From: a virus
DNA length: 23,679 bases
Direction: 5' to 3' (one strand)
IMG/VR virus record: IMGVR_UViG_3300022209_000018
Span: 1-23,679 of that record
Shown here: one piece after another, positions 15,369 through 16,524 of the stretch
Layout: every line of letters begins with the position of its first letter
Position numbering within the stretch: the stretch's first letter is position 1
The notes under the pieces: generated by a model
Told to the model about the DNA's origin: nothing
Seen by the model: only the letters and a program-made list of their open reading frames with translations
The model's database searches: none
Made by a program: the position numbers and the translations under genes

Positions 15369-15431
15369 TTTTTAATTCCTTGGGTTAAAAACTACGCGTC
15401 CGCGGTAGTTTGCATCAAATCACACTTTTAT

Positions 15432-15461
15432 GCCTAACTTGCACACAAGCAAGGTTTAGGC
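15432..15461. promoter_or_regulatory. Inverted repeat in the divergent control region
   Basis: GCCTAA-CTTGC (15432-15442) and GCAAG-GT-TTAGGC (15449-15461): 11 paired bases around ACACAA with a 2-base bulge. An operator or 5'-UTR hairpin for the cassette that starts at 15498. Confidence 0.45.
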
Positions 15462-15497
15462 GCACTCTCGCGTGAATATTATTGATGGATCGTGTGC

Positions 15498-15875
15498 ATG
15501 CAGCTCGAAACCGACTTATTTAACGCTCAGAATCGCTATCAACAGGATATTTCGACCGCCGAGAGGAAGTTGAAAGAGGCTCACGAGGCTTTTGCTCGTG
15601 ATTACCAGATAGCGCAGGCCCGTTTGGGTGATGCCATGACCAAAGCGCAAAACGAGTATTCTCAGCAGCTTTTGCGCGCAATGAATCAAGTGACCTCATT
15701 GGATCCGGGGTGCGACGATAGTGAGATGGCCGCCGTTCAGCAGGCGCCCCCCGTCGCAACAATACCCGACGATGATCAGGAAAAACCGGGAAAAAGGACG
15801 GCCAATACCGCGCCGGTTAAAGCAAAACCCAAGGCCAAGAGACGTATTGGCGTCCGGTCAAAATCATCAAAATGA
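15498..15875 (+). CDS. Coiled-coil protein with basic Pro/Lys tail (125 residues)
   Basis: Residues 1-65 form a charged coiled coil (DLFNAQNRYQQDISTAERKL, EAHEAFARDYQIAQARLGDA); residues 80-125 are disordered, Pro-rich and then very basic (KPKAKRRIGVRSKSSK). ATG 15498 is preferred over GTG 15492 for spacing from GGA. It is the first gene of a cassette with the two RebB-like genes and lies 11 bases before the first of them. The basic tail suggests binding to nucleic acid or membrane phosphates. No family recognised. Confidence 0.6.
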   Translation: MQLETDLFNAQNRYQQDISTAERKLKEAHEAFARDYQIAQARLGDAMTKAQNEYSQQLLRAMNQVTSLDPGCDDSEMAAVQQAPPVATIPDDDQEKPGKRTANTAPVKAKPKAKRRIGVRSKSSK

Positions 15876-15886
15876 GGTAGTTAAAC

Positions 15887-16171
15887 ATGGCACTCGACCA
15901 GGGCGTACTCGACTCCGTCGTTAACGCAAATTTCAAAACACTCGCCGAGCAAGTCGCATCGAATGCGGCAGCTCATCAGCAACGCTTGCAACTGATTGCT
16001 GAATCCAGCGTTGGGCAAATTCTCAATCGCATGAATTCGCTCGATCCGGCAGAAGCAGCATCGATTAGTACGGTGAACCAAAAGATCGCCGAACTTGGCA
16101 GCCAGGTGGCCGCATTGCAGCAAATGCTCAAGGGCGCCCAAACCACACCGCCCGAGACTGGCCGCGGATAA
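15887..16171 (+). CDS. RebB/killing-trait-like protein, copy 1
   Basis: 94 residues, all helical: MALDQGVLDSVVNANFKTLA, then SNAAAHQQRLQLIAESSVGQ, LNRMNSLDPAEAASIS and a closing coil. The order V-x-D-x-V-x-x-A-N-x-K-x-L-A-E, a Q-Q-x-L-x-x-x-A segment, then S-L-D, recalls the RebB (killing trait) family of R-body proteins, though ours is shorter in the middle. That assignment is from memory and needs a profile search. ATG 15887 follows GAGGTAG. About 79% identical by eye to the next gene. Cytoplasmic; R-body proteins assemble into coiled ribbons in the bacteria where they are known. Confidence 0.6.
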   Translation: MALDQGVLDSVVNANFKTLAEQVASNAAAHQQRLQLIAESSVGQILNRMNSLDPAEAASISTVNQKIAELGSQVAALQQMLKGAQTTPPETGRG

Positions 16172-16190
16172 CGCAAGGAGTTAAGAGCTT

Positions 16191-16469
16191 ATGGCTATTG
16201 ATCAAGGCGTTTTAGACAGCGTCACGAATGCCAATTTCAAAACGCTGGCAGAGCAAGTGAGTAGCAATGCTGCATCGCATCAAAACCGATTACAGTTAAT
16301 TGCCGAATCCAGTTTAGGACAAAACCTAAACCGGATGAACGCGCTGGATCCAGAGGAAGCGGCATCCATATCGATGGTGAACGGTAAGATCGGCGATCTT
16401 GGCGCGCAGATCGCGGCGGTTCAGCAGCTGATCAAGGGCGCTCAAACGACGCTCCCGGAAACGGGGTAA
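16191..16469 (+). CDS. RebB/killing-trait-like protein, copy 2
   Basis: 92 residues, an aligned paralogue of copy 1 without gaps: MAIDQGVLDSVTNANFKTLA, HQNRLQLIAESSLGQ, MNALDPEEAASIS, ending in GAQTTLPETG as copy 1 nearly does. About 19 differences in 92, mostly conservative, so both copies look functional. AAGGAG stands before the ATG. The strong terminator at 16488 closes the cassette. Tandem small paralogues are also usual for R-body loci, which supports but does not prove that reading; a minor structural or decoration protein of the virion is the main alternative. Confidence 0.6.
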   Translation: MAIDQGVLDSVTNANFKTLAEQVSSNAASHQNRLQLIAESSLGQNLNRMNALDPEEAASISMVNGKIGDLGAQIAAVQQLIKGAQTTLPETG

Positions 16470-16487
16470 GGCAAAGCGACGACTAGC

Positions 16488-16524
16488 CCGGAGGCGGGCC
16501 CTTTTGGTCCGCCTCCGGCCTTTT
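16488..16524 (+). terminator. Strong rho-independent terminator after the RebB-like genes
   Basis: CCGGAGGCGG (16488-16497) and CCGCCTCCGG (16509-16518) form a perfect 10-bp stem, followed by CCTTTTAA. Confidence 0.85.

Follow-up and report, generated by a model that had tools for sequence, protein, structure and literature searches.

Reb-like paralogues in a phage gene cassette and their relationship to the R-body proteins of bacteria

A cassette with two Reb-like genes

R-bodies are coiled protein ribbons that serve some bacteria as weapons. The stretch of DNA described here, positions 1 to 23,679 of the virus record IMGVR_UViG_3300022209_000018 in IMG/VR (hereafter the window, 23,679 nucleotides in all), carries a compact cassette at 15498-16518 that contains a pair of paralogous genes homologous to the reb genes of bacteria. 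The pair is preceded by a gene for a coiled-coil protein with a basic tail and is followed by a strong terminator, and a leader with two hairpins lies ahead of the cassette. Genes for the terminase large subunit, portal and scaffold proteins downstream identify the window as a phage record. We describe the pair, its relatives on other phage contigs and the genes that accompany them (Table 1), and weigh what such proteins might do.

The two proteins align without gaps at 79% identity, and Shine-Dalgarno-like sequences (GAGG and AAGGAG) stand before their genes, in agreement with the preliminary description of this locus, which had reported gap-free paralogues with good ribosome sites. The pair differs at 18, 12 and 55 sites in codon positions 1, 2 and 3, respectively, with saturated synonymous sites (proportion of synonymous differences, pS, 0.77) and a nonsynonymous distance (dN) of about 0.19. 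Because of this third-position excess, the saturated pS and the value of dN, we regard the pair as old, constrained coding genes, neither chance open reading frames (ORFs) nor a recent copy. The AlphaFold (AF2) model of the first protein is a helical hairpin (helices 5-50 and 54-85) with an irregular tail and a mean predicted local distance difference test score (pLDDT) of 81.6; long alpha-helical structure of this kind is expected of Reb proteins and is not discriminating by itself. The LPETG near the end of the second protein was considered as a sortase signal and set aside as coincidence, given that the family motif is TTPPxT and that no membrane anchor is present.

The leader (15385-15470) folds into the two hairpins with z = -2.9, a value matched by 2 of 200 shuffles, and the fold of the segment at 16488-16518 has z = -3.6, with a stem and T-run that make it a convincing intrinsic terminator. 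The inverted repeats ahead of the genes and the strong terminator noted earlier are both borne out. A sigma-70-like promoter was sought in the leader and none was found.

Relationship to bacterial Reb proteins

An affiliation with the RebB family had been suggested from sequence pattern, with a search against the RebB profile (PF11747, 'Killing trait') as the natural check. That search, run on both proteins singly, gave 15.0 and 15.2 bits (expectation value E = 0.02-0.03), below the Pfam gathering cut-off of 24 bits. In such single-sequence scans the Sec10, phasin and leucine-zipper profiles score similarly to RebB or better, and those of NCBIfam and PHROG were ambiguous. As the pair alone gives ambiguous scans, the relationship was settled by family context.

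Relatives of the pair occur on about 37 IMG/VR contigs, designated here by L-numbers. Three of the four relatives found first retain an 11-residue stretch that is missing from the window pair; two relatives with this middle stretch match RebB positions 1-65 of 68 at E of about 1e-4, with an E of 8e-5 obtained for this match, and family members in that scan score up to 23.1 bits. Across the family, RebB is matched at E<=0.01 by 10 of 44 members, 2.1e-6 being the best value, while every other Pfam family is matched by two members at most. One member, L026, passes the cut-off with 27.3 bits, and L105 matches RebB positions 2-65 collinearly. Aligned with hhalign, the phage profile and a bacterial reb profile give P = 95.2% and E = 2.8e-8. 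The strongest control was a six-frame search of 398 bacterial genomes with the phage profile, which returned 24 matches in 7 genomes besides its own seed contig, and the ORFs opened at these matches were reb loci with the signature ...QITD.VTQ.N.KVLGE/D.PA..., mostly in tandem arrays. The recurrent RebB matches, the profile alignment and the genome search together give good support to the suspected homology to bacterial Reb. A plasmid search yielded only Sinorhizobium/Ensifer regions (E about 0.05; aldehyde dehydrogenase where annotated), which were taken as chance. The PHROGs family phrog_32040, which has no function assigned, is matched by four A6 members at up to 6.4e-5 (for L105, positions 21-110 of 118, 6.3e-4) and gives no match with the window proteins; it may well represent this family in some reference virus or prophage.

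Like RebA, RebB and RebD of Caedibacter and other bacterial Reb proteins, the phage proteins are helical, about 90-130 residues long and encoded as non-identical tandem paralogues, and they carry the elements D-V..xN-x-K-xxx-E/D and NA/N..Q(Q) in the same order, the longer phage members being collinear over the Pfam domain. The motifs that Dorr et al. 2026 give for Reb are QITD with two flanking prolines, KXXXD/E, NAV and QQQ (PMC13430693). Both window proteins have KTLAE at the second of these, its K being invariant throughout the family, and at the NAV/QQ(Q) region they read NAA..HQQ and NAA..HQN; NAV with Q is found in L024, L027 and L105. A proline after KxxxD/E is seen in L014, L024, L031 and L105. 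Unlike bacterial Reb, phage members have a degenerate QITD, a C-terminal tail of their own, one to three copies and different neighbours, and they form a separate deep branch.

The phage branch and its companions

In trees, phage and bacterial Reb proteins are separated by a branch supported at 100/99, or at 100/100 when the trees are restricted to the Reb domain; the columns are few and only this deep split is trusted. The C-terminal motif K[G/T]AQTTPPxT is confined to the phage proteins and better conserved than their remainder. Exact DNA scans for the tail peptide across 2.9 million viral contigs hit Reb-like ORFs almost exclusively, the exceptions being one non-terminal chance ORF in two contigs and three contigs without a listed ORF bearing the peptide.

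The branch also varies in the length of its middle helix. Between the K of KxxxE and the N of NA..Q, the window clade shows a spacing of 9 residues and other phage proteins one of 16, 20 or 23, against 27 in bacteria; nine rows from phages and a few from bacteria were read by hand, and five phage rows are unassigned. The differences from the window clade, of 7, 11, 14 and 18 residues, correspond to whole helical turns, so that the phase is kept (chance probability about 0.0016). This in-phase series accounts for the remark in the preliminary description that the middle is shorter than in canonical RebB: the window pair lacks 18 residues, or five helical turns, relative to bacterial Reb between the two motifs. 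The predicted fold is of the long-helix kind, with a length that varies by whole turns. L105 contains NAVNQQNLAAQ-NAIAQQQ, an 11-residue near-repeat of the NA..QQ motif, which suggests how helix length may have changed.

Two or three Reb copies are present on 8 of about 36 contigs, spread over several separate tree lineages. The window carries two non-identical tandem paralogues, and tandem copies are likewise found in L012, L025, L030, L034, L037 and L043. On L041 the Reb-like copies lie on opposite strands, at 6694-7068 (-) and 7989-8375 (+), unlike the usual same-strand tandem.

The upstream gene of the cassette (15498-15875) encodes a protein whose N-terminal half looks helical and charged and whose last 32 residues have a net charge of +11. 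The earlier reading of this gene is sustained in those respects, while its ribosome site is weaker than had been implied. Searches for companions of this kind were leave-one-out and blind, since seeds picked by adjacency would make the search circular. When a blind profile built from six companions was run against the 2,689 ORFs on other contigs, eight of its ten best matches adjoined Reb (P = 6e-11), and the window gene ranked 6th of the 2,689. A basic tail ends the partner in L010, L011, L013, L017, L018 and the window.

Another small family occurs near Reb at 6062-6292 of L001, 8362-8568 of L009, 6557-6739 of L011 and 5018-5212 of L013. Its members are alpha/beta proteins of about 60-76 residues with the motif PFSS.T.W, are clear homologues of one another and have no match in a PHROG search. 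The divergent gene ahead of the window cassette is similar to one that lies 43 bp upstream of the L031 Reb gene (poor model; phmmer E 0.03-0.05). Its link to this family is weak, and its standing as a third partner is tentative.

The neighbours of Reb are late genes, including terminase (L010, L012, L024, L035, L042, L043), portal (L013, L020), major tail protein or tail tube on one side and tape measure on the other (L008, L040, L105), endolysin (L036), holin (L031) and transglycosylase (L007). By eye, the genes that enclose the Reb-like gene of L105 (7623-8018), L108 and L113 (6971-7369) are those of a probable tail assembly chaperone and of the tape measure. In the window, holin-like and lipoprotein genes lie past the terminator.

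Table 1. Features of the window in and around the Reb-like cassette
Feature	Position	Strand	Remarks
Small divergent gene, tentative third partner	15135..15368	-	77 aa; weak basis
Leader hairpin 1 (AAACTAC...GTAGTTT)	15389..15411	+	folding
Leader hairpin 2 (GCCTAACTTGC...GCAAGGTTTAGGC)	15432..15461	+	folding
Coiled-coil partner, acidic linker and very basic tail	15498..15875	+	125 aa, ATG at 15498; member of the phage-Reb companion family
Phage Reb-like protein 1	15887..16171	+	94 aa, Reb-like over about aa 7-54; C-terminal KGAQTTPPETG, aa 82-92
Phage Reb-like protein 2	16191..16469	+	92 aa; 79% identical paralogue; C-terminal KGAQTTLPETG
Intrinsic terminator ending the cassette	16488..16518	+	13-bp GC-rich stem, T-run
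Holin-like small membrane protein	16547..16756	+	phrog_34682 holin E = 0.019; neighbour just past the terminator, outside the cassette

Possible roles of the phage Reb proteins

We consider it somewhat better than an even chance that the pair belongs to a branch of the Reb superfamily that is found in phages and had not been described before, and that it is placed in a small late-region module with a basic-tailed coiled-coil partner. Reb proteins are known to polymerise (PMC3583457, PMC8322103). In gene content alone, the cassette is similar to RebP1/RebP2 and RapA of Pseudomonas aeruginosa PA14, which likewise combine two Reb paralogues with a non-Reb protein; RapA associates with the Reb polymer (PMC8322103). 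The paralogues would pack side by side, with their conserved helix faces in contact, and so build up a helical assembly of multiple subunits like that of RebA/RebB or RebP1/RebP2. Lateral packing is the most likely mode because Reb homologues polymerise, the pairs are non-identical and recurrent, and length changes are in phase. Docking on a common target would fall to the partner with its basic tail and to the flexible, conserved C-terminal tail, and the assembly would be produced late, alongside virion and lysis proteins. The product is probably a late, self-assembling helical protein.

Several observations weigh against this placement. Besides the sub-threshold RebB scores of the window pair, the QITD signature with its two flanking prolines is not found in either protein, where the region reads GVLDSV, with D and V retained and both prolines missing. 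Sequence searches of the PDB found no relative of Reb, so that a match to a Reb fold was impossible, nor did Foldseek return anything from the viral models. The partner profile had no match among the ORFs of three bacterial reb loci.

An alternative that we hold possible, if doubtful, is that the Reb-like hairpins serve the virion as minor proteins of its structure or assembly, bound for instance within tail or head, where the C-terminal tail would dock them and the partner would act as an adapter. Their position on L008, L040 and L105/L108/L113, where major tail and tape-measure genes flank them, the contigs in which they adjoin terminase or portal and the C-terminal motif conserved above the rest of the protein are consistent with such a role. 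Yet the phage Reb-like proteins match none of the PHROG structural families, and their position relative to structural genes is unfixed even within one Reb clade, L040 having the gene amid tail genes and L031 beside a holin. Most tailed phages also do without such a gene: among 50,697 phage records, seven family or Reb queries gave no match at E<=0.1, and the matches to a window protein, all at E>=1, were unconvincing.

It is unlikely that the module is a lysis accessory, a helical polymer that, as infection ends, aids envelope disruption or regulates the holin or spanin. The preliminary description had placed the pair next to lysis genes, which is true of the window; endolysin, holin and transglycosylase neighbours on L036, L031 and L007 agree with it, and an Rz-like spanin is a weak match to one partner (E = 0.006). 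That resemblance covers the coiled-coil part only, without a membrane segment. Family-wide, small membrane genes within 1.5 kb of Reb are only 1.7-fold enriched, a marginal effect (p = 0.054), and terminase, portal and tail neighbours are common too.

The proposal that the phage carries a minimal R-body-like system is not supported: the pair has a degenerate QITD, and both the C-terminal tail and the partner gene are peculiar to the family. We file the window pair as a variant branch of Reb and not as an R-body system because KXXXE and part of NA..QQ are kept while QITD is not. A true R-body, which like that of Caedibacter would be an extendable ribbon, freed at lysis and harmful to eukaryotic grazers or to other cells, is quite improbable: Reb homology and non-identical tandem paralogues comparable to RebA/B and RebP1/P2 would suit it, but the copies are short, number one or two and form no arrays, the branch is deep and separate, the partner differs, and the canonical motifs are only partly kept. 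Least credible of all, and largely refuted by the genome search, is the reading of the pair as a low-complexity helical protein that resembles RebB through composition without real kinship, since the similarly strong Sec10, phasin and leucine-zipper matches, dropped as identities, fail to recur among relatives where RebB recurs, and since the profile's genome matches beyond the seed are reb loci only and hhalign aligns the two profiles.

Raymann et al. 2013 searched phages, found no Reb homologues and left 'a phage origin?' open (PMC3583457); in view of that result, the phage branch makes a possible origin of R-bodies from phages a live question again. The matter has been open since phage-like particles were seen with R-bodies, an observation that a passage of PMC3583457 credits to Preer 1974, and a Reb branch on dozens of uncultured phage contigs makes it testable. 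A text search of the Reb phylogeny of Dorr et al. 2026 found no mention of phages (PMC13430693). A rather unlikely extension is that tailed phages bear a native, late R-body-like polymer module, made of a short Reb pair and a basic-tailed coiled-coil protein, that is ancestral to the killer-trait R-bodies of bacteria; if true, it would explain the phage-like particles. The phage set, with short Reb relatives, a partner that is conserved and lengths that form a natural 7/11-residue series, is useful for the study of subunit packing while the PDB holds no Reb structure.

Elsewhere in the window, tandem repeats at 7-147 and 590-756 (6/30-bp and 12/24-bp units) lie in an ORF at 18-818 and encode MALAMAMA and WEAARAAA runs; low-complexity tandem coding stretches are also present on the related contigs L036 and L037. 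Two adjacent ORFs on the minus strand, at 11969-12508 and 12540-12824, start with MFGDWKLSD and MFGDWKLTD and seem to be tandem paralogues. A 747-residue ORF at 1154-3397 appears by eye to be a fusion, half SNF2-type helicase and half DNA methyltransferase.
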